Assembly (NCBI GenBank): GCA_947063855.1
Contig: CAMSTW010000036.1
Span: forward strand, 1 to 34,913
From: an uncultured Dorea sp.
GTDB lineage: Bacteria > Bacillota > Clostridia > Lachnospirales > Lachnospiraceae
Direction: 5' to 3'
DNA: 34,913 nucleotides
Numbering within the stretch: the stretch's first letter is position 1; every line of letters starts with the position of its first letter. This document shows, piece by piece, positions 5,247 to 24,347 of the stretch. The position numbers and the translations under genes were made by a program. The notes below the pieces were generated by a model that was given only the letters and a program-made list of their open reading frames with translations, was not told the origin of the DNA and did no database searches.

Positions 5247-8200
5247 TCAGAACACCAGCTCCTGCTGCTCCATCACTTCAATCTGAGAAACGATCATCGT
5301 CTCCGGCTCATTCCCCCGCAGATGGTCTGCCTTCAAATACTGCATCCCGCTTCGTAAATTCGCCGCAATCAGATTCAGCACATAAATATTATCAAACCGG
5401 TTATAAATCGAGTCCCCGCCAAGCCCTGTCAGGCACACAAGCTGCGTGTTCGTCTTCTTCGCCACATCCATCAGCGGTTTCAGCAAATGCGACGCATTCG
5501 TCTGGGCGAACGGATTATCCATAACCAGAACCTTCCCCTCATTCTTATCCGCAAATATATCCGTATCATCCTTACGCATATAATACAAAAGGCTCGACAG
5601 AATGACGAATGCTGACAGGAATCCTTCTCCTCCGGAATTCCTCGCCACTTCCGCCCAGGTAATCGGATACTCCCTCTGCGCCTCAATCTTATACAGCCGA
5701 ATCTGCACATTCCCAATCCCGACTATCGTATCATACAGGTTTCTCGTGGTAATCTGGGTTCCGAAATATTCCTGCGCATTTTCATTCTGCTCAAATAACC
5801 GAAGCCCCTTCTGCGTGATCTCGTCAATCATATCCTGAAGCCTGATCTGATACAGGTTCTCATTCTCTTCCCACTCCGGCAGCCCGATTTTCAGCATCTT
5901 CACAGGCCTCTCCCGAATCGCAATCGTAGAATTATGGTCAATCCTGCCAAGATTCTGATGCACCTCCCGGACATAATCCTCCATAAGCTCCACGATTTTG
6001 TTCTTCTCCTTCTCCACAAGGGAAATGTCTACCAAAAGCTTCTCCATCAGGCTGTCATAGGACTGTATCGTGGTGGTAAGCTGCCGCAGCACGGCAGACC
6101 CATCCTTTGTAAGCTCCAGCATCGACTCCAACGGTTTTCTGTAGAAATCCTCCTGAAACTGCTCCATGCGTATCGTACGGTTCAGGAGGCGGTCAAGCAC
6201 ATCCTGCGCCTCCCGGCAGTCCCTGAGCATCTGATTATAATCCCGGATTAAGATGCCCTTAAAATTGCGGAGGCTCTTTGCATCCATCTCTCCAAAGTCC
6301 TGCTCCCATACGACCTCGTTAGCGAGCGGAAAGCCGCTGTATTCCGAAAGCGCCGTCAGGTTCTCCCCATAACTGCGCAGACGTTCCCGGAGGCCCTCCG
6401 CCTGTTTCCCCGCCTCCTTCTCCTGATAACGGAACTGATTCTTCCTTGCGTCAAAATCCTGGTTCTGGATTTCCTCCTCTGGCAGAGGTTCTTCCTCGCC
6501 GCATTCCGCCTTCATCCGTTCCAGCCGCTCACGTTTCTGCTGGTTCACCACGGCGATTTGCTTATCCTCGTCGTTCCAGAGCCTTTGCTTTACGGCAATC
6601 TTACGTTCACATTCGGAAAGCATGATTTCCTGATGAGATTCCGCCTCACGGTTATAACTTACCTGCTCCAAATTCTCGCTGGAAAGCCCGTATTTACTCC
6701 GTAAATGCTCCAATTCATCCACTGCATCCTGATAACGGTTTCCGACGCGCTGCTCCTGTTCCTCGAGCTCCTGAATTTCCTGAGACATATGTGAAGTAAT
6801 TGCGGCATACCGGGCTTCCATTTCCCGGATATTCCAAAACTCTTCTGCCGTTACCTTATTCTGACCTGCCAAGCCTTTCCGGTCCTCTGTCTTTAAGTTC
6901 CCTTCTGCCCGATCTGCATTCTCTTTCTCACTACTCTGGAGGCTTACCTCATGCGCCGGAATCTCTGTCATCCTTTTCACAGTTTCAAGACTTTTCTTTA
7001 CTGCCTCAGGCGTCTCCTCCTTCTCATACCGCTCATACTTCCACCCCTTCTTACGGATCTCATCTCCTTCCCGGAGCAGGTTATTGTACGCAATCTCTCC
7101 GGTCTTCTGCCGCTCCCTTAGCTTCTCCTGCTGGTTCCTGCATAATTTCTGCTTCTCCTTGAGCTTCTCCGCCTCCTTCTTACAACGCATAAGCTCCTTT
7201 AGATTCTGCTCATACGCCTCATACTCCCTGCACAGCCGCCCGAAATCCTCAAGCCTTCGCATCTGGCGGCTCACCTCGCGTTCAGCGCTTCGGGCTTCCT
7301 GTTCCAGACGCTCTGTCTTAGCTCTGAGTTCTGCCAGTTCTCCCGTTTCTTCACGGATCTTTCGCTCCTGCCGCCCGATTTGCTCTCCAAGCTCTCTTAG
7401 ACGTTTCTCATTTGCTTCCCAGTTCTCTTTGCTGACCTCCTGATTACGGATCATCTCCTGACGTTCAAAATATTCCGTGTACTCAGCCTGCCGGATGGCG
7501 ATAGACTCCTTTTTCTTCTCAATCTGCCGCTCCTTCTCCTGCACCAGACCCTTAAGCTTCTCTTCATTCAGCAGATTTTCATTGAACCAGACATAGAAAC
7601 TGACTCCCTCAAGCCGGATCATCCCACTCGCCTGATTCTCCCCGCTTCCATCAAGCATCTCCCGCACCACAATCGGAACCGGGAATGACGTATAGATCCC
7701 TTCCATATTCTGAGACAGTTTACGCACCTCCGCCTCGGAGAGAATCAGCGCATAGGGCAGAAACGGGTGGGCGCGCACCAGCTTAAGATTCTGCGCTTCC
7801 GTATATCCGTTCTTTCCAAGCCACTCCATCCCATAGACCACATGGATTCCAAGGTCTTCAAGCTCCGTTTCCAGTTCCTCCGGCAGCTCTAGCACTTTCC
7901 CCTGTGTCAGACGCTGATACTCTTTCTGCAGGATGTCCTCTTCCTTCTCAAGGTTCCTGCGAAGTCCCGCAATCTCCTTAAGTTTCCGCTCCGACACATG
8001 GAGAATCTTATCCCTGTCAAAAATCACATCCTCCCTCAGGTTCAGATATTGCAGTACAATCTTCCGTGCCCCCAGTTCCTCTTCATATTCCTGCCGCAGG
8101 TTCTCCTGCTGTTCAAGCTCCATCTTCCCCTTAAGAAGCTCTGCGCGCATATCCTCAAGCCCGCGCTCAAGGCTGCGGCTTTTCTCATTTGCCTGCTCCT

Positions 8201-9809
8201 GCTGTTTTAAAAGCGCCAGGCGAGACCGTTTGACCCCTTCCAGCTCCTTCTCATAATCTTCCCGGCGGATTTCTAATGTGCCCGGCTCATATACGCCGAG
8301 AATATTACGGATAAACTCCTCCCCGTAACGCTGGTTATACCCATCCTCCGACCGGTCATAAGACGCCGCCGCACTCCTTAGTCCTCCTGAGCGCGCCGCA
8401 TTTTCAATCAGGAGCTCGGAAAGCTCAGAAAGTTTCCCTTCCACGCCAGACAGCTTTGATGTGATTGCCGCCGCCTCTTCTTCATTCGCCTTCCTCTTCC
8501 TTTCATTTTCCTCCAAAAGCCCTTCATAATAACGCCGCAGAGTATATCCCAGGCTTTTGCGTTCCGGTTCCAAGTCCTCTTCCTTCTGCCTCGATATCAG
8601 GAGCTTCTGGCGGATCAGCTCCAGTTCTCCCCGTTCCTGCTCTGCCGCCTTCCATTGTTTCGCACATACCAGAAGATGCAGCGTATGCCGTATCCCCTGG
8701 GCATCCTGCTCCAGGTCCTCCTTCTCGATTTCAATCATATCCCGGTTGCTCAGATGAAACCTAAGCTCTTCCCTTAGCTTATGAACCTCACTGGACAGCT
8801 TCTCATACTCCACTCTTAAAAGCTGTCCCCGAATCGACTCGATTTCCTCAAGTATCCCTTGATATTCCGCCTCCGTCACATCATGAAGGCGCGCAAGTTC
8901 CGCGATAAAATGTGCGATTCGGTTCTCCTGCCGTCCTGCCTGGCTGCTCTTAGCCTGATAATCCTCTGCCTCCTTACGAATCTTATCTGCCCAAACCTTA
9001 AACTCACGTATGATGTCGCGCCTCTTAATCTTCGTCTGGTTATCCTTATACTGCCCCACATATTTCTCAAGAATCGTCTGGAATTCCTTCATCCGGTTCC
9101 GTTCCTTATTCAGTTTGCTTTCCACGGCATCCAGAAACCATTTCTCCACCAGCCCCTTCTCATCCCGGCAGTCTGCAAACAAATCCGATAATCCCGACTC
9201 TTTCAGATTCACCTTTTTGATAATCGTCTCCCACTCTTTATAGTGAATCTGATACTCCGTCAATTTATCAAAATACTGTCTGGACTGCGCCGCATTCATC
9301 ATATCATAATAGAAGAAGTTCATAGACCTGTCTTTCTTATAGGACTCAAACATCTGCCTGCACGCGGCAAAATTTTTAAGGACAATCTCCTTCTTCCCCT
9401 TCTCCACCACAGGAAGGTGATGGATATCCTGAATGCAGGACTCCCGGTATTCACTGATGATGTTGACCATCTCCAGATTCTCCCCATTCCCCTCTCCCGT
9501 CTCCTGGCTCCTTCGCACCATCATCCCCGTAAGGACATAGCCTGCCCCGCCGTCCAACGCCCACTCCACAAGGATAAATGAGGGCTTATTCGTGGTAAAA
9601 TAGCTCTCGAACGGCCGGTCTTTTGCATCCCGGTATCTCTTATGCACGAACGGAGCCGTCAGCATCTGGACAAGCACGGATTTCCCGCCTCCGTTCCTTA
9701 AAGACAACAGCGTACTCTCACCATTCAGGTGGAAACACTCGTCGCTGATACGGATTGCATTATTGTTATAATTAATATTAATCAATCTGACAGCATTTAT
9801 TTTACTCAT
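5247..9809 (-). CDS. jetC: Wadjet JetC, SMC-like ATPase (MukB/MksB-type)
   Basis: 1520 residues. Walker A variant LRNGGGKSV (Lys43) is at the N-terminal end. Roughly 230-1300 is Glu/Lys/Gln/Arg-rich coiled coil broken by a globular segment near 620-760 that may be the hinge. The C-terminal head has the signature NSGGEG (about 1391-1396) and a Walker B with Asp-Asn, VMDNPF (about 1431), as in SMC-like Wadjet proteins. In known Wadjet systems JetABC extrudes loops on small circular DNA and JetD cuts it, restricting plasmids. The great length suggests a type II-like Wadjet. I chose the ATG at 9809 because GGAG lies nine bases upstream; an in-frame TTG is at 9815. It is the last gene of the defence operon, 56 bp after jetB. 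Confidence 0.93.
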   Translation of the reverse strand: MSKINAVRLININYNNNAIRISDECFHLNGESTLLSLRNGGGKSVLVQMLTAPFVHKRYRDAKDRPFESYFTTNKPSFILVEWALDGGAGYVLTGMMVRRSQETGEGNGENLEMVNIISEYRESCIQDIHHLPVVEKGKKEIVLKNFAACRQMFESYKKDRSMNFFYYDMMNAAQSRQYFDKLTEYQIHYKEWETIIKKVNLKESGLSDLFADCRDEKGLVEKWFLDAVESKLNKERNRMKEFQTILEKYVGQYKDNQTKIKRRDIIREFKVWADKIRKEAEDYQAKSSQAGRQENRIAHFIAELARLHDVTEAEYQGILEEIESIRGQLLRVEYEKLSSEVHKLREELRFHLSNRDMIEIEKEDLEQDAQGIRHTLHLLVCAKQWKAAEQERGELELIRQKLLISRQKEEDLEPERKSLGYTLRRYYEGLLEENERKRKANEEEAAAITSKLSGVEGKLSELSELLIENAARSGGLRSAAASYDRSEDGYNQRYGEEFIRNILGVYEPGTLEIRREDYEKELEGVKRSRLALLKQQEQANEKSRSLERGLEDMRAELLKGKMELEQQENLRQEYEEELGARKIVLQYLNLREDVIFDRDKILHVSERKLKEIAGLRRNLEKEEDILQKEYQRLTQGKVLELPEELETELEDLGIHVVYGMEWLGKNGYTEAQNLKLVRAHPFLPYALILSEAEVRKLSQNMEGIYTSFPVPIVVREMLDGSGENQASGMIRLEGVSFYVWFNENLLNEEKLKGLVQEKERQIEKKKESIAIRQAEYTEYFERQEMIRNQEVSKENWEANEKRLRELGEQIGRQERKIREETGELAELRAKTERLEQEARSAEREVSRQMRRLEDFGRLCREYEAYEQNLKELMRCKKEAEKLKEKQKLCRNQQEKLRERQKTGEIAYNNLLREGDEIRKKGWKYERYEKEETPEAVKKSLETVKRMTEIPAHEVSLQSSEKENADRAEGNLKTEDRKGLAGQNKVTAEEFWNIREMEARYAAITSHMSQEIQELEEQEQRVGNRYQDAVDELEHLRSKYGLSSENLEQVSYNREAESHQEIMLSECERKIAVKQRLWNDEDKQIAVVNQQKRERLERMKAECGEEEPLPEEEIQNQDFDARKNQFRYQEKEAGKQAEGLRERLRSYGENLTALSEYSGFPLANEVVWEQDFGEMDAKSLRNFKGILIRDYNQMLRDCREAQDVLDRLLNRTIRMEQFQEDFYRKPLESMLELTKDGSAVLRQLTTTIQSYDSLMEKLLVDISLVEKEKNKIVELMEDYVREVHQNLGRIDHNSTIAIRERPVKMLKIGLPEWEENENLYQIRLQDMIDEITQKGLRLFEQNENAQEYFGTQITTRNLYDTIVGIGNVQIRLYKIEAQREYPITWAEVARNSGGEGFLSAFVILSSLLYYMRKDDTDIFADKNEGKVLVMDNPFAQTNASHLLKPLMDVAKKTNTQLVCLTGLGGDSIYNRFDNIYVLNLIAANLRSGMQYLKADHLRGNEPETMIVSQIEVMEQQELVF

Positions 9810-9865
9810 ACACAATCACTCCACAAAAACAGCTCTTATCCTTACTCATCATTCTTCCAGAACCT

Positions 9866-10579
9866 TCAATCCTTCTCCATTCCCAATACCCGCAGCACTC
9901 TCTGGTAATGATTCTGGTTCAACAGATTCCAGTCCATAAAATTATCCAGCTTCTTCGTCGTCTTGATCATCTCGTCCGCTTCCACATACTCAATCAATCC
10001 CTGCTTCTGTAAAAATACCAGAATCGAATGAAGGAAACCTTCCTTCGTCGTCTTTGCTCTGGAACCTTTATCATCTGAACGCAAAGCCTCGTACGCTTCA
10101 AGCATGTTGGAAAACGCAATCCCCGACTGTTCCTCCTGTTCCTCATCCATCCCCTCGGCTCCCTCCTTGAGACGGCTAGAAATGCAATTCTGCAGTTCTC
10201 CCACACGCATGTATTCCCGGGCTTTACTGCTGCTTCCCTGTCCGTCGAAGAATTCCACCAGAAGCGTCAGCACCACGAACTGGGAGAGGTAATAATCCTT
10301 ATCTGTCCCGGAGGATTTACAGAGTGCGGCTTTTAGCTGTGCCTTAGAAAAACCAAGGAAATGATTCTCCTCTTTTGGAATCAGATATATCACATTCCCA
10401 TACCGCTCAATCCGGCTCTCGGCAATCTCCCCCTGAGATTTCACTAAATTCTGTATCTCTTCCTGCTCCGTATACGCCCTGTAGAGCTGCATTTCCTCGT
10501 CCTCGCAAAGCTCATGGTGTTCCAGGAGATAGTAGAAAATCTCCTGGCTTGTCCGGACTTCATCTAATTCATAAGCCAT
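9866..10579 (-). CDS. jetB: Wadjet JetB, MukE-like kleisin-associated subunit (DUF6063-type)
   Basis: 237 residues, predicted to be all soluble and mostly helical, with a winged-helix-like C-terminal part (ILVFLQKQGLIEYVEADEMIKTT...) typical of MukE/MksE relatives. It has an acidic linker around 135-148 (GAEGMDEEQEEQ). It should bind the JetA kleisin and the JetC heads. The ATG at 10579 lies 6 bp after the jetA stop and its AAAGGAG ribosome site is inside the jetA 3' end, which argues for translational coupling. Identification rests on size, position between jetA and jetC, and resemblance to the DUF6063 family. Confidence 0.88.
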   Translation of the reverse strand: MAYELDEVRTSQEIFYYLLEHHELCEDEEMQLYRAYTEQEEIQNLVKSQGEIAESRIERYGNVIYLIPKEENHFLGFSKAQLKAALCKSSGTDKDYYLSQFVVLTLLVEFFDGQGSSSKAREYMRVGELQNCISSRLKEGAEGMDEEQEEQSGIAFSNMLEAYEALRSDDKGSRAKTTKEGFLHSILVFLQKQGLIEYVEADEMIKTTKKLDNFMDWNLLNQNHYQRVLRVLGMEKD

Positions 10580-10585
10580 ATATTT

Positions 10586-12202
10586 TTACTCCTTTTCCAC
10601 ACGAATCAACACATTCGAACACCGAATCGTCTTCCTCACCTTATCCTCATTCAAAATCCCTTCAAACGTAACGGTGCCTCCATCCTCGATCCGATAAGTC
10701 CCTACCCTCCGGATATCCCGGAATTCAGGGTATTCCTCCACCAGATGAAGCAGCATCTCGTTCAGCTGGAACTCCCCGGGTACATCCTGGATATACTCAC
10801 TGCGCTCCCTTAAAAGCACGGTAATATCAATCTCCTGATTCTTAATCAGCTCCACCATGACTTCCTTGAAGATCTCCACATTCGGAATCAGTTGTTCCCG
10901 TTCCTCTTCCTGCTCCCTCACAGCCACGCTGATTTCCCGAAGGGATACCTCCCCCGTTTTTACGGCATAACCAAGCAGCCGGCAAAGGCTAGTCTCGTAC
11001 CTTTTCAATTTCTCCTTGCGAAGCCTCTCCTGCTCACGCATCCACGCTTCCTCGTCAAAATCCAGTTCCTCCGCAATATCCTCCTCCATGCGTCTTCGCA
11101 CCGGGCGCTGTAACTGAAACGCCTTATTCAGGTTATAGACCTTATCCGGCTCCTGATTAAACAGCGGCCGCAGGAAATAATCCAGATTCTCAAGAGCCTT
11201 TGGATTCTCAAGCACCTTATCATACAATTCACTCCTAAGAGGGAACCGTCTGATCAGCGACATCTGCGTCAGCGTCTCCAGCTCCTTCGTATATAGTGCT
11301 TTCAGATCAAAATGGCTGTTCAATATCTTCTGATGTTCATCAATCGTCCGGTTCAGGTATGTCTCAATGACCCGCAGATGGGAAAGCCGCTCCTCATCCT
11401 TCTCACTGAGCCTCTTTACATTAATATTCTCCTCCTCCAACGCCTGCGCCCGGCTCTTCACCATCTCCCTGTAATTCTGGAACTTCTCCTTCGTGTCACT
11501 GATGGTATCAAGATTCCCAAGCAAGATCTCCTCGTAATCCTTCACAGAATAATTCAGCGCATTCCTCCGAATCTTCCCCATCGCCTCCTGAATCTTCTGT
11601 AACTGAATCCGCAGCAGGTTGAACACATTCTTAATCTCATCCACAGCCTTGTCATAACTCTGCTTCTCAAGATGCATCTGGAAAATCATCTCATGAATCG
11701 TAAGCTTCATATTATTTTCAATCTCCAGCGTCGCCAGCAGAAGATTGTACCCATCGTCCGTCAAATAGTAAGAAGTACGCTTGAATTCCTGGTCTATGTA
11801 AATAATCCGGTTCGCCACATAACTGATATGAAGATTCTGATACTTATTTTCTTCAAAATCAAACCCTTCAAAATACATAGCCCTCCCTTCGTTGGACAGC
11901 ACAATATTTACCACGAAATCCCCGAGCTGCCTGCACTCGTCATAAGACATACTTTTCCTGAAATGCCCGGTATTGACCGTGTCGATATAGGCGCCTACAT
12001 CATCCATCGTGCAGCGCTCCTCTTTCAAGGACTGCTCCATGATATAGAGCATGACGGCAAAAATCAAGTTCAGCTGCTCCCCCAGAGTCAGGAAACCGAA
12101 CTGCTTCCAGGTTGTCTTCTGGGCACTGTTCTGGATCAGCAGCGCATAAAGCCCCACATTCTTCATCCTTTTGGGGAAATGTTTTAAAAATTCGTATTGC
12201 AT
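10586..12202 (-). CDS. jetA: Wadjet JetA, MukF-like kleisin subunit (DUF5716-type)
   Basis: 538 residues. The N-terminal 190 residues read as a winged-helix/dimer region (FLTLGEQLNLIFAVMLYIMEQSL, YYLTDDGYNLLLATLEIEN). The middle (200-300) is long-helical with heptad character and a basic/acidic linker follows near 365-395. The last 60 residues (...VGTYRIEDGGTVTFEG...) form a small domain consistent with a kleisin end that contacts the SMC head. Its role is to bridge the two JetC heads in the loop-extruding complex. The ATG at 12202 follows an AGGAAAGGA site and sits 12 bp after the ptuB stop, so it is transcribed behind Septu. It is recognisable as the first gene of the jetABC core. Confidence 0.9.
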   Translation of the reverse strand: MQYEFLKHFPKRMKNVGLYALLIQNSAQKTTWKQFGFLTLGEQLNLIFAVMLYIMEQSLKEERCTMDDVGAYIDTVNTGHFRKSMSYDECRQLGDFVVNIVLSNEGRAMYFEGFDFEENKYQNLHISYVANRIIYIDQEFKRTSYYLTDDGYNLLLATLEIENNMKLTIHEMIFQMHLEKQSYDKAVDEIKNVFNLLRIQLQKIQEAMGKIRRNALNYSVKDYEEILLGNLDTISDTKEKFQNYREMVKSRAQALEEENINVKRLSEKDEERLSHLRVIETYLNRTIDEHQKILNSHFDLKALYTKELETLTQMSLIRRFPLRSELYDKVLENPKALENLDYFLRPLFNQEPDKVYNLNKAFQLQRPVRRRMEEDIAEELDFDEEAWMREQERLRKEKLKRYETSLCRLLGYAVKTGEVSLREISVAVREQEEEREQLIPNVEIFKEVMVELIKNQEIDITVLLRERSEYIQDVPGEFQLNEMLLHLVEEYPEFRDIRRVGTYRIEDGGTVTFEGILNEDKVRKTIRCSNVLIRVEKE

Positions 12203-12214
12203 TGTATTCCTTTC

Positions 12215-12973
12215 CTACTCTATGACATTCTTTTCTCTTCTTATTAATGCATTGTACTTTTTGTTCAAGAAGTACAATAGAACTCCTGCATACTCTGGTC
12301 TCTTCTCAGCAGATGCTATCTCGTCCATCTTTTTCTTAATTCTCGAAGCAGTACACTTCCCCTCTTCTCCCAACTTCTTAATAAAACGCCTGTAATGTAA
12401 ATATGTATCTTTTCTACCCTTAACCAGTCCCGTAGATGTATCTGCTATAAATCGTCCGTTTTTCCACAGTCCATTTAATCTCAGTACATCTGTAAGTTCT
12501 TCTTCAAGCTTCTCGTCCTTCGGATTCGTCTTAATAAATCCCTCTCTGTCATAAGCAATGACAGCCATCTGATGCTTGTTCAAAGGAGAAATCATCAATG
12601 TCTTTTCATCCCCTTTACTGGCGTCGCAACACAGAATCCTCTGCCCTTTTCCACTCCATTTCCTTCCACCATCACAAACTGCCAGCATATTCCTATAGTC
12701 TAATGCCTGATCCTTATCTTTGCTCAGTGGATACCAATGCTCTATCGTCGTATGCAATCCATCATTTGCAATCTTCCTCATACAGTACGCACATAAAAAA
12801 TGCTGCTCTTCCAACAACGTTTGACGAATTGTTTCCTTCGGCAATTTGTCAAATTCCGCCCGGATTGCTTTCACATCTTCATCTTTTATCTCTTTCCATT
12901 CCCGGCTGCTTCGTATTTCACTTGTCTTTCGCATCATCTCTCTGGGCGGAATCCCTTTTTCAATATATATCAT
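12215..12973 (-). CDS. ptuB: Septu PtuB-like HNH endonuclease (TIGR02646-type)
   Basis: 252 residues. HNH core: CAYCMRKI (Cys-x2-Cys, about 59-66), TIEHWYPLS with the catalytic His, a conserved NMLAVCDGG segment, then ILCCDASKGD, closely following the TIGR02646 HNH pattern that ends in C..xKG. In Septu, PtuB is the nuclease held by the PtuA ATPase and released to cut DNA on phage infection. The start ATG at 12973 overlaps the ptuA stop by one base (TAATG) with GGAGGA just upstream; a TTG at 12988 is in frame but badly placed. Base composition is visibly AT-richer than that of the surrounding jet genes. No reverse transcriptase is nearby, so a retron of the PtuAB-effector kind is not supported. 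Confidence 0.87.
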   Translation of the reverse strand: MIYIEKGIPPREMMRKTSEIRSSREWKEIKDEDVKAIRAEFDKLPKETIRQTLLEEQHFLCAYCMRKIANDGLHTTIEHWYPLSKDKDQALDYRNMLAVCDGGRKWSGKGQRILCCDASKGDEKTLMISPLNKHQMAVIAYDREGFIKTNPKDEKLEEELTDVLRLNGLWKNGRFIADTSTGLVKGRKDTYLHYRRFIKKLGEEGKCTASRIKKKMDEIASAEKRPEYAGVLLYFLNKKYNALIRREKNVIE

Positions 12974-14241
12974 TAGTCCTCCTCCCAACAGTTCAATCGG
13001 AGTTCATCTCTTGCCCCCCGGACATCAGCATGCTCCTCTCCGAGAATTTCTGCCATCTTATCAATAACCTCTTCTGCCAGTTCCAGTTTTCCTTCATCCA
13101 CAGCTTCTTCAAATTGTTCCGACAACATCTTGATTTCTATCGGTTTCTCCACCGTACCCTGCCTAAAGTTTAAGACATCCTGAACCGAATATCCATATGC
13201 ATTTTCCAGATAAATAATCTCCTGATCCTCCGCAATAAAAATCAGCTGCTCATTCTTGCAAGAAGAAATCACAATTGGGGAATGCGTTGCCAGAATAAAC
13301 TGAATATTTGGAAATGTATCTTCCAATGCATTTACAATATTCCATTGCCACTTAGGGTGCATATGCATATCTATCTCATCAATCAGCACAATCCCTGTTA
13401 CTTCACCCAGATTCATTGTCTTGTCCGGATTCAGCAAAGCCAATCTGTATGCAAGATTCATAACCATCCACAACAAAGACTGATAACCGGCGCTCAGTTC
13501 AAAAATTGGCATATCCATCTCTCCCTCCTGATATACCAGCTGTTCTAACTGCGTAGAATAATAAATCTGCGGCTCAGCCTCAAGGCTGCTTATCTGCATC
13601 ATAAAATGACCCACAATCTTCTTAAACGACTCATATTCCTTAATCTCACTCTTTTTTTGAAATGCATTCAACTCCATCTTCAGACACCATGCCTGTATTC
13701 CCCTGATATCCATAGAATAATCCATACATCCCGCGTACCCGCACCGTCTGTCATTCAGCCCCTTCTTTAATCCCTTCCTGTCATTTTCCCGATGCTTCTT
13801 CCAGATTCTGGCATCACTCTGAAAGCAAAGCAGAGGAAGCACCGAATTTGAATCATTTGTGTTCTCCTGCATCCATTTCGCAATGCCACTATCTTCCTCT
13901 TTTGTCGGGGAATTTTCATCCACGCGATATCGTTTCCAATAAAACTCCTGTCCTTCTGCTTTCATCCGACACGTGATCTCGACCGGAGTTTCGTAATGGA
14001 TTTCCGAAGAAGCATCTCCCCGTTTATTGAAAGAGAAACGAATATCATCCAAAGAAATTTTCCTGACAGGAACGCCCTTAACCCCTCTTAACATTCCAAA
14101 TAAAGCTACTGTAATAGCTTCTAATATTGATGTTTTTCCAACTCCGTTGTCACCAATCAGAAGATTGACTCCGGGAGAAAATTCTATTTTGATATCTTTT
14201 GCAGCTTTAAAATTTTTAATCCCAATCTGCTCAATCTGCAT
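12973..14241 (-). CDS. ptuA: Septu PtuA-like AAA ATPase
   Basis: 422 residues. The N-terminal strand-loop IGIKNFKAAKDIKIEF and Walker A GDNGVGKTS (Lys36) mark the RecF/OLD-like ABC-ATPase fold. The signature region is ELSAGYQSLLWMV, Walker B is IVLIDEIDMHMHP, and the switch His is in ILATHSP. The last 60 residues are charged and helical. The direct partner is the HNH gene that overlaps it by one base, which is what identifies Septu. The start is the ATG at 14241: GAGGAG lies seven bases before it, whereas the ATG at 14247 would leave one base. The 132-bp space before it contains a 15-bp copy of the jetD 3' end. Confidence 0.87.
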   Translation of the reverse strand: MQIEQIGIKNFKAAKDIKIEFSPGVNLLIGDNGVGKTSILEAITVALFGMLRGVKGVPVRKISLDDIRFSFNKRGDASSEIHYETPVEITCRMKAEGQEFYWKRYRVDENSPTKEEDSGIAKWMQENTNDSNSVLPLLCFQSDARIWKKHRENDRKGLKKGLNDRRCGYAGCMDYSMDIRGIQAWCLKMELNAFQKKSEIKEYESFKKIVGHFMMQISSLEAEPQIYYSTQLEQLVYQEGEMDMPIFELSAGYQSLLWMVMNLAYRLALLNPDKTMNLGEVTGIVLIDEIDMHMHPKWQWNIVNALEDTFPNIQFILATHSPIVISSCKNEQLIFIAEDQEIIYLENAYGYSVQDVLNFRQGTVEKPIEIKMLSEQFEEAVDEGKLELAEEVIDKMAEILGEEHADVRGARDELRLNCWEED

Positions 14242-14318
14242 AATCATACTCCTCAATCCTACAAGCATGCACCCATAGCTCTTCTCTGTCATTCACACTA
14301 TCTTTTCCTGTTCCAGAT

Positions 14319-14384
14319 CACTTCAAAAATCAGTAGTATTACGCCACAACCCGTCTTTACGCCTCATACCACTTCAAAAATCAG
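14319..14384. repeat. 15-bp direct repeat duplicating the jetD 3' end
   Basis: CACTTCAAAAATCAG occurs at 14319-14333 and 14370-14384. The second copy includes the jetD stop codon and its last codons. The flanking bases are also similar (AGTAGTATT against AGCTATATT). The other copy lies in the jetD-ptuA gap, possibly a scar of the event that brought the Septu pair in. Confidence 0.75.
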
Positions 14385-15420
14385 CTATATTCAATATCTC
14401 CTGCGGAATATACTTTCCGGCTTCCAGCACAGCCTTCATCCTGCTTACTATTTCCCCGTGGAAATGTGAGAAAAAATCCTCCCGTATATTCCGGTTCTGT
14501 TGTTCCTTCGTATCCGGCAGATTCTTTGCGCCGCACGTCCCATCTGCCTTTTCGAGCATAGCCTCATACGCCTTCGTAAAGGGCAGAATCTCCCACCTGC
14601 CTCTTCCCATTTCTGCAAGGCTTTCGTAGATTCCGATTCCCTCATAATCCAGATCGCCGAAATAATAGATCCGGTTCCTGCCGTCCTTCATATAAGGTTC
14701 CACACACAGATCAAAATCCAGAAACGAGCGCAGGATTCCTTTGCCTGCACCATAGATCAGCGTTCCGATCTCCACGCCAAGGATGCTGCCCTTCCTGTTT
14801 CGCAAACTGATTTTTTCTCCACAAATCTTATCCCGTTCTTCCGGTGCGGCGTCACTCATGATATGCCTTCGCATACTATAAAACGTATCCTTGTTCTCCA
14901 GGATCAAAATATTCTGCGGTACTTGTCTTGTCCGGGAATAGTAAGCCAATGGTTCCGTCGTCTGGTAAATATTAAGAAAGCCTTCCTCCAGACCGCAATT
15001 CTTCAAAATCCGTTTCCCCTGTCCCCGGCTTAAGAACTTCTCATGATTCCAGATCTCAAAGCTTCTTTCATTCGTGGATTCCGTATATTCCAGTTTTTCC
15101 CTTTTTTCCTTCAGATATTCACTCAGCATCAGAACCCACTGCCTGTCCTTCTCATAGCTCGCAAGATGTGACAGATAATAATCAACCGCAATCATAGGGT
15201 GGAGCTGATATTTCAATTCCTCTTCCAGTATACGGTAATCCTTCTCAGGCTCTGCCAGCCAGTATTCCCGGTAAAGCGCTGGACGCTTCCCATTCGTGCC
15301 GGACGCTTTCAGGGGCCTGATCTTCCCTTCAGAAATCAATGCAAGGATATATTCATACTGCCGTCTGTATGCGGCGTCTTGTCTGGCGTAAAGCAATGCT
15401 TCCAGAGATATACGCTTCAT
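14374..15420 (-). CDS. jetD: Wadjet JetD, Toprim-type DNA-cleaving subunit (DUF2220-like)
   Basis: 348 residues. The Toprim signature is intact: Glu175 in ILILENKDTF and Asp256/Asp258 in YFGDLDYEGIGI, with the conserved IYGAGKG loop near 222-228. The N-terminal 130 residues are helical and basic, a likely DNA- or JetC-binding arm. In studied Wadjet complexes JetD is the topoisomerase-VI-like nuclease that cleaves the plasmid once the SMC motors stall. It lies upstream of, and separated from, jetA-jetB-jetC by the ptuA-ptuB pair. The ATG at 15420 has AAGGAG eleven bases upstream, a long spacing; a three-codon reading frame (ATG CTA TGA) with better spacing overlaps this start. Confidence 0.9.
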   Translation of the reverse strand: MKRISLEALLYARQDAAYRRQYEYILALISEGKIRPLKASGTNGKRPALYREYWLAEPEKDYRILEEELKYQLHPMIAVDYYLSHLASYEKDRQWVLMLSEYLKEKREKLEYTESTNERSFEIWNHEKFLSRGQGKRILKNCGLEEGFLNIYQTTEPLAYYSRTRQVPQNILILENKDTFYSMRRHIMSDAAPEERDKICGEKISLRNRKGSILGVEIGTLIYGAGKGILRSFLDFDLCVEPYMKDGRNRIYYFGDLDYEGIGIYESLAEMGRGRWEILPFTKAYEAMLEKADGTCGAKNLPDTKEQQNRNIREDFFSHFHGEIVSRMKAVLEAGKYIPQEILNIADF

Positions 15421-15446: not shown

Positions 15447-16259
15447 CTAATTCTTTGCAATCCTTCCATATGCATTCCGGATCACTCCTTTGCACAGAAG
15501 ATGCTTCTTCATATTCCTCTGCAGGGACGTAACCTCAGGCAGGTCCGCATAGTCTGTATCCGGTCTCCTTTGGAAAACCCACTCCATAAATTCCGTATCC
15601 GCCTCACCCTCGTCATAGATCTCAAAACGGTCCTGGAAGCTGATGATATTCGATCCTTCCCGCAGCATTCCTCTGATCCCTGGATCCAAGAGCCAGGAAT
15701 GGCAGCAATATTGCGCATCCGCAGTTTCCGGATAATACTGACGGAAAAATACCTTCGCACTCTCCAGCGACCGTTCCACAGCATCCGGAGAGAAGTCAGC
15801 ATCTGAAGGAATGTGAATTTTGATCATTCTCTCATCTCCCATATCCGCGGCTTCATATTCCAGCGCACCGATCCGGAAGAGATGACCGCCCGCCTGGCGC
15901 GCCGTCCACCAATATCTGTCAAAGTAAAGCCGCCCCGTCATCCTGTAAGTCTCGTCAATAAAACGCGTGTAACACTTCATCGTATCAAGATAAATCTCCG
16001 CGCCGATCCCTTTCTGCTCATAGATCCCCCAGGCGTCTGCCGACGCTTTCAGCATACAGGCAAGTATCTTAATATGGTCTTTATCCTCCCCCAGAATTGA
16101 CTGTAATTCTGAATGTACAGTTTTCATACTTTTATATACAAGAAAATCTTTCAGCTGCTGCTCCACCGCCTTAAAGTCAAATGTTCGTCCGAACTCAAGC
16201 ACCCTCTCTCTAATCTCCGGCTGAAGATTTATCTCATTGCAAAGTGTTGATATATCCAT
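15447..16259 (-). CDS. DUF5596-type putative acyltransferase (GNAT-like C-terminal half)
   Basis: 270 residues, soluble. The N-terminal half has the family's opening (LQPEIRERVLEFGRTFDF, then LGEDKDHIKILACMLKA) and a conserved aromatic block FDRYWWTARQAGGHLFRIGALEYE. The C-terminal half (...IHIPSDADFSPDAVERSL..., then CCHSWLLDP...) resembles the acyltransferase tail of the family. It belongs to a clostridial family annotated as acyltransferase-domain proteins; no substrate is known. It has a strong AAGGGAGG site lying inside the preceding GNAT fragment. It ends 26 bp before jetD on the same strand, so it is co-transcribed with the Wadjet genes. It may be an accessory factor or simply a neighbour; I cannot tell which. 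Confidence 0.75.
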   Translation of the reverse strand: MDISTLCNEINLQPEIRERVLEFGRTFDFKAVEQQLKDFLVYKSMKTVHSELQSILGEDKDHIKILACMLKASADAWGIYEQKGIGAEIYLDTMKCYTRFIDETYRMTGRLYFDRYWWTARQAGGHLFRIGALEYEAADMGDERMIKIHIPSDADFSPDAVERSLESAKVFFRQYYPETADAQYCCHSWLLDPGIRGMLREGSNIISFQDRFEIYDEGEADTEFMEWVFQRRPDTDYADLPEVTSLQRNMKKHLLCKGVIRNAYGRIAKN

Positions 16260-16357: not shown

Positions 16358-18082
16358 CTATTCCTCTTCAGATACTACTTTACACTTTTTCTTATAACAG
16401 GCAATCCCATACTTTAAAATTTTATAATATCCGGCATCTTTTAATTCTGCAGCATAACCCATATCTTCGATTTGTTTCATTGCATTTTCACATTCGGCAG
16501 ACAGCTTTTCATCTTCGGCATATTTGAGCTCAATAACCATTCCTATACCTTTATCCTCAATTTCGATAATGATATCCCCAAAACCATTTCCGGCCTCTCT
16601 GTTCGATTTTACATACCAATCAGTCTTGAATCCCAAAATTCCAAGCATAATACCATGATAGAAGTTCTCCTTAGTTGGCTTTCTTACAAAAGTATCTCGA
16701 ATACTAATCGTTCGTTTCAAGTATTCATTGAATAAACGCTCCACCTCCAAAGCCTTTCCAGCCTCTAAAGCATCACAAAATTCTTGTAATTTTTCACCGT
16801 CCCTTTTGGCAGCTTCTTTGAACATCGTCATAATCTGCTCTGTAAAAATATTTCTAATCTCCATATTCGGTATTGCCAATTGAAAACATTTCCCATCCGG
16901 ATTCCCTCTCTGCGTCAGATATCCGGTAGTAAAGAGAACACTCCAGATATTATCAATCGAATCATAAATATGGTCATAAGTCAGCTCCATGTGGATATCC
17001 TTTGTTATAATTTCGCCGGCAACAAGCGCTTCAATCTCGCTTTTAGCTAATCCTTTATCCACCTTTTCAATAAAATATCTTACAATATCGTTCCCACTGG
17101 TATTTGACCAGTAGTCTTGCGGAGGCAGGCTTCTTTTTTTTCTAAGCTTATTAATGTAACTGACTACATCCCATGGACAATACACATCTGAATCTCCAAA
17201 ACGATATCCGTTATACCAGGCTTTCATGACATCGTATTTATCGCTCAGCTCATAATACTCCAACAATTCCCGCACTTCGTAGTCCGTAAATCCAAAATAC
17301 GAATCGCAGTCTTCATCAATGATAGAGAATATATTCGTATTATTCAATCCAGTAAAAATACTCTCTTTTGAAACCCGCAAACATCCGGTTAAAATTGCAA
17401 AATACAGACTATCATTTGTTTTTAATACCTGTTCAAGCATATTTCGCATTAAAATTATCATATTTTCATAGTAATTTCGCTCATTTGCCTTGGCAAGCGG
17501 TACATCATATTCATCAATCAGGACGACCACTCTTTCTCCATAATGCTTCTGCAACAATGCAGAAAGTGTTTTCAGACTTCCCATCAGCACCGAATCTGGC
17601 ATGATAAAGCTTTCTGCATTATTTGTATCCACTTTTATCAATTGATAATACTGCTTTTTTTCAATCTCATTTAACCGGTCACTATTTATAAACAGATCAT
17701 AGAACCTCAATGCCTCATTTCCAATCACGGAGCACATCAACGATCTGGCGGTTGGATAATCAGCGCCATTTATCCCTTTCAAGGTAATAGAAATTACAGG
17801 AAACCTTCCCATATAAATATTACAAAGCTCCGTTTCTTTCGCAATTTCCAACCCATCAAACATTCTTTTATTACAGCCTATTTCAAAAAAAGACTTAAAC
17901 ATACTCATATTCAATGATTTACCAAAACGCCGCGGCCGGGTAAACAGATTTACCTTCCCCCACGCATCAAGAAAATCCCGTATCAAACCAGTTTTATCCA
18001 CATAGTAAAAACCTTCTGAACATATCTCATCAAAAGCTTCAATACCAATCGGCAGTTTCTTTTTGCCTATACTTTTCCCCAT
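16358..18082 (-). CDS. AAA-ATPase/PD-(D/E)XK nuclease family protein (PF09820 + DUF1703)
   Basis: 574 residues. The N-terminal AAA-like domain has the family hallmark FTRPRRFGKSLNMS (Walker A Lys55) after IGIEAFDEI...YYVDKT, and a Walker B VVLIDEYDVPL. The C-terminal domain (about 450-560) holds a PD-(D/E)XK core: GDIIIEIEDKG followed by VIELKYAED, giving the Asp-Glu-x-Lys constellation. The family is widespread and often multicopy in gut anaerobes; its function is unproven, but a DNA-related or defence role has been suspected. ATG 18082 has GGAG eight bases upstream. The gene is clearly AT-richer than the jet genes, a sign of separate acquisition. It stands first in the same-strand defence run, 4 bp before the GNAT fragment. 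Confidence 0.88.
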   Translation of the reverse strand: MGKSIGKKKLPIGIEAFDEICSEGFYYVDKTGLIRDFLDAWGKVNLFTRPRRFGKSLNMSMFKSFFEIGCNKRMFDGLEIAKETELCNIYMGRFPVISITLKGINGADYPTARSLMCSVIGNEALRFYDLFINSDRLNEIEKKQYYQLIKVDTNNAESFIMPDSVLMGSLKTLSALLQKHYGERVVVLIDEYDVPLAKANERNYYENMIILMRNMLEQVLKTNDSLYFAILTGCLRVSKESIFTGLNNTNIFSIIDEDCDSYFGFTDYEVRELLEYYELSDKYDVMKAWYNGYRFGDSDVYCPWDVVSYINKLRKKRSLPPQDYWSNTSGNDIVRYFIEKVDKGLAKSEIEALVAGEIITKDIHMELTYDHIYDSIDNIWSVLFTTGYLTQRGNPDGKCFQLAIPNMEIRNIFTEQIMTMFKEAAKRDGEKLQEFCDALEAGKALEVERLFNEYLKRTISIRDTFVRKPTKENFYHGIMLGILGFKTDWYVKSNREAGNGFGDIIIEIEDKGIGMVIELKYAEDEKLSAECENAMKQIEDMGYAAELKDAGYYKILKYGIACYKKKCKVVSEEE

Positions 18083-22321: not shown

Positions 22322-23056
22322 TTAATCATCTTTACACAACTCTGCAAAATCCTCATAAAACCTCCGAAAACTAATCGGACATTTTTCTTTTAATGTTTCT
22401 ATTGATATTTCATCAGCAATATCTATATATGTCTCTCTATCTGGTTTTTGATAATACTGTTCCAATACTCTTTTTAAGTAGTTCTTTGGATAGTCACTGG
22501 CAGGGTTATTTTTCTCTCCCCATATCAGTTCTGGCTTTGATGGCAGCTTAGGGTTCATCGGCTCTGCTCCAAAACATTTTCTATAAGACTCTTTATCAGC
22601 AAGAAGCCAATTCTCTATCATTTTCAACGAAATCATCGGCAGTCCTCTCCAGATCGTACCTTCTACCGACTGCAGCCCTCTTGTAACATCAGAATATATT
22701 TTTTCAAAATACTTTTTACAATGCGTTTCTTCTTTCTGGTTCCCACTAATCACCTTATCAGTATCACAATAAAAGATTCCTTCTGTATATCCATTTTTTA
22801 CTGCGTACATAGAGAATCTTAACGCTGGAATTCCTTTTCCCTCCACTTTTCTTAAATGTCTTGCAGCAAGTTTTACTTTATCCTTTCCATCAATAAAACG
22901 CTTTTCTACATATTCTATTTCTAAATCTACATTCATTTCTTCCGCACATTTTTTCAATAGATAAATGATTGATCCCGGACGCCATCCTCCTGTTGAGTCT
23001 TTCCATCCATAATCGTCCGGGCCTTCACCATATACAAGAAATTTCAACTGTTTCAC
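22322..23056 (-). CDS. Toprim-like protein (DUF4276/RloB-type) paired with an AAA ATPase
   Basis: 244 residues. FLVYGEGPDDYGW near the N-terminus matches the Toprim-style Glu-Gly-x-x-Asp loop, and IFYCDTDKVISG (about 94-105) supplies the Asp-x-Asp pair, the arrangement of DUF4276/RloB-like and OLD-type Toprim nucleases. The middle has WRGLPMISLKMIENWLLAD, similar to the helical block of DUF4276 proteins. It starts at GTG 23056, overlapping the ATPase stop (GTGA) with AGGGG eight bases upstream, so the two are coupled. ATPase-plus-Toprim pairs of this sort include RloAB/AbiL-like, PARIS-like and split OLD-like defence systems. Which one, if any, is not decidable here. Composition is much AT-richer than that of the sulfur genes. 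Confidence 0.78.
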   Translation of the reverse strand: MKQLKFLVYGEGPDDYGWKDSTGGWRPGSIIYLLKKCAEEMNVDLEIEYVEKRFIDGKDKVKLAARHLRKVEGKGIPALRFSMYAVKNGYTEGIFYCDTDKVISGNQKEETHCKKYFEKIYSDVTRGLQSVEGTIWRGLPMISLKMIENWLLADKESYRKCFGAEPMNPKLPSKPELIWGEKNNPASDYPKNYLKRVLEQYYQKPDRETYIDIADEISIETLKEKCPISFRRFYEDFAELCKDD

Positions 23057-24249
23057 AAAATATTCCCCTCTTTAAGCAACTCGTCAATAATTTCCTGATT
23101 GCTCATGTTCATAAGCAATTCTCCCGGATACAGATAATCCATCTTCGCATTCAACTCAATATTATCTGTTAAGCCGCTGCATCTGCATACCCCCGTCTCT
23201 GGTTCCCGGTACATATATCGGATATTGTCTTTTTCTACATAATCCAGAAAAATCGGGCTATGCGTGGTAACTATCATTTGATTTTTCTTGTTCTGGCAAT
23301 TTTCTTCCAGAATATTAATAATCTTCTCTGCATAATCCAGGTTAATCCCATTCTCTATTTCATCTAACAGCATAATACCCTTCTTGTCCATCTCGCAAAT
23401 CGCAAGGAAAGCAAGTAATCGCAGCATTCCGTCACTCATGTTTTTTGATTCTATTACCAGAATCTTGCTCTCATATTTTTCTTCTGCAACCAACTGTGTC
23501 CATCCTGGTTTTCCCTTCGTTTTTGCTTCTACCTTTATAATTCTGTCATCTAATACCCTTCTTATCTTCTCAGCAAAATTCTTTTTCTGCCTCTGATTCA
23601 TTGACTTGATAAAGGAAGGCAATTTCTCCCCCGCACTTCCAATCGAATCCACTTCTCCCCTGCTGGAAAGTCTCATTTTCTCGGGAGACAAAAGTTCAAA
23701 CGAATCAGAATTCTGTAAGAATTCTTTTAACGCACGCAATACCGGATAATCCGCAAAATCCATTAATTTCATAAGTGAAGCGTCAGCCTGGAATTTGGGC
23801 AATCTCATCAGTTGTCCACCAATACCATCCTGAATAAAATTATCACTGTCTTTTGATACGGAATATGCTAATAATGGCACTATATGCCCTCCATTATTTA
23901 TTGTCACTTCTTCACTAACTAATTCCAAGATATTCTTCTGCGTATATGCCGACAACTGGATTTCCCAACAAACCAGGACATTCCTTGACTCTGCCGATAA
24001 TTCTATCTCACATTTAATTGTAATCTTCTGTGACTTCTGTAATTGTGACTTTATATCCGCCACTTTCCATCCCCGCCGCTCCAGAATAACTGAAAAATCT
24101 TCGCTCCCAAGGTTAGATATAAAGTCCAAGATCTGTAATACCGTGCTCTTCCCCGACATATTGTTTCCAACGATTACTGTAAACGGATTTAAATTCATCT
24201 GAAATTGATTTAACGCTTTAAAATTATCCACATATATTCTTTTTATCAA
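23053..24249 (-). CDS. OLD/RloA-like AAA ATPase
   Basis: 398 residues from TTG 24249. IKRIYVDNFKALNQFQMNLN and Walker A GNNMSGKST (Lys34) mark the RecF/OLD-type ATPase fold. The signature stretch is SDGMLRLLAFLAI, Walker B is GIMLLDEIENGI and the switch His is in IVTTHSPIFLD. No Toprim domain is fused; it is supplied by the next gene. Start choice: GGAGG lies eight bases before this TTG, whereas the upstream ATG at 24327 lies inside the -10 box of the gene's own promoter and cannot be on the transcript; ATG 24276 is possible but has no ribosome site. The sequence is AT-rich, like foreign cargo. Confidence 0.82.
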   Translation of the reverse strand: MIKRIYVDNFKALNQFQMNLNPFTVIVGNNMSGKSTVLQILDFISNLGSEDFSVILERRGWKVADIKSQLQKSQKITIKCEIELSAESRNVLVCWEIQLSAYTQKNILELVSEEVTINNGGHIVPLLAYSVSKDSDNFIQDGIGGQLMRLPKFQADASLMKLMDFADYPVLRALKEFLQNSDSFELLSPEKMRLSSRGEVDSIGSAGEKLPSFIKSMNQRQKKNFAEKIRRVLDDRIIKVEAKTKGKPGWTQLVAEEKYESKILVIESKNMSDGMLRLLAFLAICEMDKKGIMLLDEIENGINLDYAEKIINILEENCQNKKNQMIVTTHSPIFLDYVEKDNIRYMYREPETGVCRCSGLTDNIELNAKMDYLYPGELLMNMSNQEIIDELLKEGNIL

Positions 24250-24318
24250 TGCATTTACCTCCAAATGCCCACACATCCAGTTTGTATCAGGCGGCAGATC
24301 TGAATATTTGACATTGTC

Positions 24319-24347
24319 ATTATACATGATTATATTCCAGAGTACAA
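24319..24347 (-). promoter_or_regulatory. Promoter of the AAA/Toprim pair
   Basis: Minus strand TTGTAC (24347-24342), 17-bp spacer, TATAAT (24324-24319). Transcription would start near 24312, which rules out the ATG at 24327 as a start codon. Confidence 0.65.

Follow-up and report, generated by a model that had tools for sequence, protein, structure and literature searches.

A type I Septu pair within a type III Wadjet operon

The stretch of DNA analyzed here (hereafter, the window; 34,913 nucleotides from an uncultured Dorea sp.) carries, on the minus strand and in the order jetD-ptuA-ptuB-jetA-jetB-jetC, six genes that were identified from open reading frames and PADLOC profiles. The locus is a type III Wadjet that contains a type I Septu, and every frame is intact. 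JetA, JetB, JetC, and JetD, each of the type III form, are all present. The jetD gene (14374-15420, minus strand) encodes the type III Wadjet Toprim-type nuclease (PADLOC JetD3, 5e-120; Pfam JetD_C, 2.9e-6), in which E175, D256, and D258 are invariant among 38 aligned sequences and presumably fill the Toprim role. A PDB sequence search returned no credible match for JetD. The best PDB match of its structural model was topoisomerase VI A (E 4.4e-4, TM 0.33), a weak match that is consistent with the comparison of the JetD Toprim domain to topoisomerase VI A in a review (PMC10586767). The other Wadjet genes, all on the minus strand, encode a kleisin (jetA, 10586-12202; PADLOC JetA3, 3.5e-271), a KITE protein (jetB, 9866-10579; PADLOC JetB3, 4.9e-133; Pfam DUF6063), and an SMC-like ATPase (jetC, 5247-9809; PADLOC JetC3, E=0), the start of which was set at MSKIN, following a sister locus. 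For those genes that are covered by Pfam, its assignments are consistent with PADLOC.

Between jetD and jetA, ptuA (12973-14241, minus strand) encodes a Septu type I ABC-type ATPase (PADLOC PtuA1, 2.3e-141), whose best PDB sequence match is Septu PtuA (8ee4; 7.6e-39) and which carries GDNGVGKTS and VLIDEIDM, taken here to be the Walker A and Walker B motifs. Its open reading frame opens at 14292; because the best profile match begins at residue 18, which is preceded by its own ribosome-binding-like GAGGAG, the start is likely at 14241, leaving a jetD-ptuA spacer of 132 bp. The adjoining ptuB (12215-12973, minus strand) encodes a Septu type I HNH nuclease (PADLOC PtuB1, 8.9e-44). No match to PtuB was found among PDB sequences with phmmer; its AlphaFold model (pLDDT 92.5) first matched 8eea_G of the E. 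coli Septu complex (E 1.4e-6, TM 0.71/0.75), and retron chains ranked after this complex in the structure search. The NCBIfam retron-type PtuA and PtuB models were both matched below their cut-offs. Regarding the traits of Septu type II (retron I-A), no reverse transcriptase was found among the window proteins searched (20 against Pfam, 20 against PADLOC), and, with regard to an msr-msd RNA, no Rfam match reached the gathering score within the window. The AAA/HNH pair therefore groups with PtuA and PtuB in profile searches, a check that the preliminary description had proposed, and it resembles type I Septu in the pairing of an ATPase with an HNH nuclease, in the ptuA-ptuB order, and in that no adjoining reverse transcriptase gene was seen. 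It differs in that it sits within the operon of another system.

The ptuA and ptuB genes overlap by one base (TAATG), ptuB is separated from jetA by 12 bp, and jetA from jetB by 6 bp, so that the gene order and spacing first reported for this locus hold throughout. The jetB-jetC gap (9810-9865) is 56 bp in the window, and the same two genes overlap in the sister locus L096. An acyltransferase-like gene (NAT_N, GNAT_C; 15447-16259, minus strand) lies 26 bp upstream of jetD; it is probably outside the Wadjet system because, among the loci examined, it adjoins jetD only in the window and in the sister genome G398.

Boundaries and transcription of the inserted segment

When the window was compared to nine loci of the genus (blastn), homology on the jetD side ended at 14387-14366, no more than 14 bp from the jetD stop codon (14374-14376), and restarted at 12217-12212, 10-15 bp ahead of jetA. 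These limits define an inserted segment of ~2.16 kb (12215-14372, minus strand, ends approximate); the empty site in G398 has 17 bp between jetD and jetA. The earlier suggestion of an insertion, drawn from AT-richer Septu genes, is supported by the near-precise empty sites in the nine genus loci, and the difference in composition was confirmed (GC 40.3 and 41.5% in ptuA and ptuB, with GC3 of 42-44%, compared to GC 47-50% and GC3 54-63% in jetA-D). The 15-bp sequence CTGATTTTTGAAGTG spans the jetD stop (14370-14384, minus strand) and recurs within the jetD-ptuA spacer (14319-14333, minus strand), 51 bp downstream of the first copy. From its position, the second copy is probably a scar left by an insertion or recombination event; since this direct repeat is present on one side of the insert only, we name no insertion mechanism or element.

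At neither insert junction are the frames or the ribosome-binding-like sites disrupted, and no promoter-like or terminator-like match was found on the coding strand of the jetD-ptuA spacer in a consensus scan, which is weak evidence either way. A weak promoter-like match (9/12) is located at the ptuB-jetA boundary (12228-12201), and the regional scan total (26 found vs. 20.4 expected) is near chance. Judged from these sequence features, a shared transcript of the genes from jetD to jetC is plausible. Septu might instead be hitch-hiking cargo with its own promoter, separate from jet transcription; in favor of this reading, the jetD-ptuA spacer is long for an operon and the match at 12228-12201 could drive jetA. 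Against it, the coding strand of that spacer gave no promoter-like match, weak as the scan is, and we consider separate transcription unlikely.

The jetD-jetA junction in related Wadjet loci

Gene order was compared among the window, 34 family loci, 80 of 194 confirmed loci from genome contigs, 4 genus loci, and 26 phylum loci (145 in all), of which 130 non-redundant jetA loci were retained after 15 with a JetA end identical to one already counted had been dropped. The family set represents 34 of 35 other JetA genomes (excluded were G330, which had the weakest match, and an additional weak match in G319), and the phylum set represents 26 of 27 (the weakest, G960, was excluded). No jetD was in view in 10 of the 130 loci (L138, L141, L142, L160, L049, and L061-L065), some of them at contig edges, and large inserts may therefore be under-counted. 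In every locus where jetD was located, it lies ahead of jetA and shares its strand, at a median spacing of 15 bp (120 loci with jetD in view). The jetD-first order is thus usual in related loci and the insert is the sole anomaly of the window: it shares with other type III Wadjet loci the four genes in jetD-A-B-C order but has ~2.16 kb between jetD and jetA. Contiguity, which is usual rather than strict in Wadjet operons (jetD-jetA spacer <=300 bp in 113 of 120 loci), is interrupted here by ptuAB.

PtuA or PtuB was seen in only one of the 130 loci, the window itself, when the fetched stretches were scanned. Within the genus, jetA is present in 11 of 12 genomes, and PtuAB is absent from the jetD-jetA junction in the other 10 genomes with jetA; PtuA-like genes occur elsewhere in several of the genus genomes. 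In the family draw (397 genomes, the window's included), JetA (E up to 0.001) was found in 36 genomes and PtuA (E up to 1e-30) in 25, and the three other genomes with both (G110, G157, and G373) carry them on different contigs. The class draw (283 genomes, the window's included) yielded PtuA in 5 and JetD_C in 42, again on different contigs in the two other genomes with both (G501 and G558); the PF09983 search used for this draw missed the window's own type III jetD and hence under-counts type III. The preliminary description had asked whether the jetD-AAA-HNH-jetA order recurs in unrelated lineages and had taken restriction to a single genome as evidence against its proposal; in this sample, the order is restricted to a single genome.

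Apart from this rarity, the jetD-jetA junction looks special in that it tolerates inserted genes. Spacers >300 bp occur in 7 of 120 jetD-jetA junctions (the window, L096, L133, L136, L161, L162, and L172), in 2 of 126 jetA-jetB junctions (L166 and L063), and in 0 of 125 jetB-jetC junctions, and spacers >1 kb are found in 5 of 120 jetD-jetA junctions and in none of the other two types. The excess at the two thresholds (Fisher p 0.006 and 0.003; if L133 and L136 are taken as a single locus, 0.015 and 0.010) is a guide only, since the loci are related. The cargo at this junction includes ABC-transporter genes (L172), a gene without a Pfam or PADLOC match (L162), a 2,433-aa protein, surface-exposed in appearance, together with a YibE/F protein (L133), and, in the sister species G402, a truncated, unrelated AAA-ATPase-like gene (PF09820; L096 9627-9986). 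In a distant relative, a 303-aa protein without a Pfam match lies between jetA and jetB (L063 9942-10853). The jetD-jetA junction may be the permissive point of the operon; a probable reason is that JetA, JetB, and JetC are produced together as one complex, with JetD as a separate effector. In type III Wadjet, this boundary between the nuclease and motor genes merits a search for defence genes not yet discovered, on the principle of guilt by embedding.

G402 is the closest relative in jetA (97% identity). Identity between the window and G402 is mostly 92-99% from jetA to ~4215, with 84-89% over some of jetC, compared to 78-90% beyond ~4215, 81% in jetD, and mostly 73-83% in the longer pieces elsewhere (~30 kb queried; one 1.5-kb piece at 91%), some of which may be paralogues. 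Synonymous divergence (dS) is 1.01 in jetD and 0.07-0.16 in jetA-C, and the dN/dS of the jet genes is 0.03-0.21. Based on the contrast of jetA-C in identity and dS with jetD and the remaining genome pieces, jetABC appears to have been swapped recently between the window and G402 lineages, and one break of this exchange falls at the insertion point. Recombination of such allelic jetABC blocks, ending at the jetD-jetA junction, may help cargo to enter or leave. It is very improbable, in our view, that the junction is a recurrent loading dock at which swaps of allelic jetABC blocks between species bring or remove cargo and that, in this lineage, the SMC motor and PtuAB have become functionally coupled via a common dosage or direct contact.

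Origin of PtuAB and its relation to Wadjet

A tree built from 22 PtuA rows pairs the PtuA of the window with that of another Lachnospiraceae genus (65% identity, support 100/99), where PtuB is present and there are no Jet neighbours. No Jet genes were found around 20 PtuA loci that were fetched (14 of 30 other family places, 2 genus loci, 3 class loci, and 1 locus elsewhere in the window's genome), including some short contigs and some loci without a full PtuB. The dS of PtuA and PtuB relative to their nearest relative is saturated, therefore selection on these proteins is not measurable. A first sequence scan of genome contigs gave no match to PtuA. In plasmids and phages, PtuA matches were all <60% identical (47.8% for the best among the matches listed, a faecal phage record); the insert had no DNA-level match in plasmids, and relatives of JetA were found in neither viral contigs nor plasmids. 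The window's genome contains a second Septu pair elsewhere, without Jet neighbours (C11; L232 6891-8901), and a type II Wadjet (C28; L269 18-7138), the jetA of which runs off the fetched edge; thus, neither system is the only one of its kind in this cell.

We favor, with a probability of about 0.8, a scenario in which a self-contained type I Septu entered a permissive junction of Wadjet by horizontal transfer, resulting in two independent defences that may be on one transcript. A single Lachnospiraceae lineage would have gained the ptuA-ptuB cassette in this way, and the cassette would have inserted into a type III Wadjet operon already present, after the stop codon of jetD and ahead of the ribosome-binding site of jetA; a single mRNA may now extend over jetD-ptuA-ptuB-jetA-jetB-jetC. 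In the literature, JetABC is described as detecting circular DNA via loop extrusion, with JetD as the cutting subunit (PMC10586767), a Wadjet restricts plasmid transfer into a Clostridium (PMC12287153), and one E. coli Septu, like retron Eco7, acts on tRNA-Tyr, whereas another E. coli Septu is reported to target DNA (PMC13096335, PMC11555353). JetABC of the window would, by this scheme, extrude small circular DNA and license cleavage by JetD, and PtuAB would separately answer infection, its HNH subunit cutting phage DNA or host tRNA. Septu and Wadjet would then be independent barriers with common expression, an anti-phage module paired with an anti-plasmid SMC system in an apparent single transcription unit.

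The preliminary description had also raised the idea that PtuAB serves Wadjet as a functional accessory, whereby JetABC loop extrusion or plasmid sensing would activate PtuB as a second nuclease. The close gene spacing, the ribosome-binding-like sites, and the short ptuB-jetA gap fit this idea, as does the position of ptuAB next to the jetD nuclease gene, which it could complement. However, JetD retains its conserved acidic residues, PtuAB accompanies one of 130 jetA loci and is missing from the junction in the 10 genus genomes, and neither the closest PtuA relative nor the 20 PtuA loci fetched have Jet neighbours; the accessory role is unsupported and, in our judgment, very improbable. Functional coupling on the grounds of conserved gene order was likewise rejected, given the single occurrence among the 130 loci. 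Least probable of all is an assembly artefact that joined two contigs: the genome is a draft (136 contigs, estimated 84% complete) and the arrangement is seen in one genome only, but both flanks belong to the same operon and each matches sister loci nearly to the insert, with frames and ribosome-binding-like sites uninterrupted over both junctions.

An inserted Septu, as we prefer to read the locus, places a complete second system between the genes of the first. That defence systems can be embedded within one another is already established, and the window is a new example. Septu in Hma is cited and DarTG2 in type I RM described in PMC12255303, PrrC in RM loci in PMC12629846, and the occurrence of Hma with Septu in PMC8565338. 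The window is like these cases in that a complete system lies within another, and unlike them in that the host system is of the plasmid-restricting SMC type and the occurrence is single. The Septu-in-Wadjet pairing was not found among the titles and abstract openings listed by the literature searches, and it may already be on record elsewhere.

Two further features were observed in the window. Upstream of the operon, an AAA-ATPase-like/PDDEXK_9 gene (16358-18082) has relatives at a number of other loci with jet or ptu genes, which perhaps only reflects a common family. A pair composed of an AAA ATPase and a DUF4276-like protein (22322-24327), matching PADLOC PDC-M25A (1.9e-79) and, weakly, PDC-M25B (1.6e-7), is a possible further defence pair.
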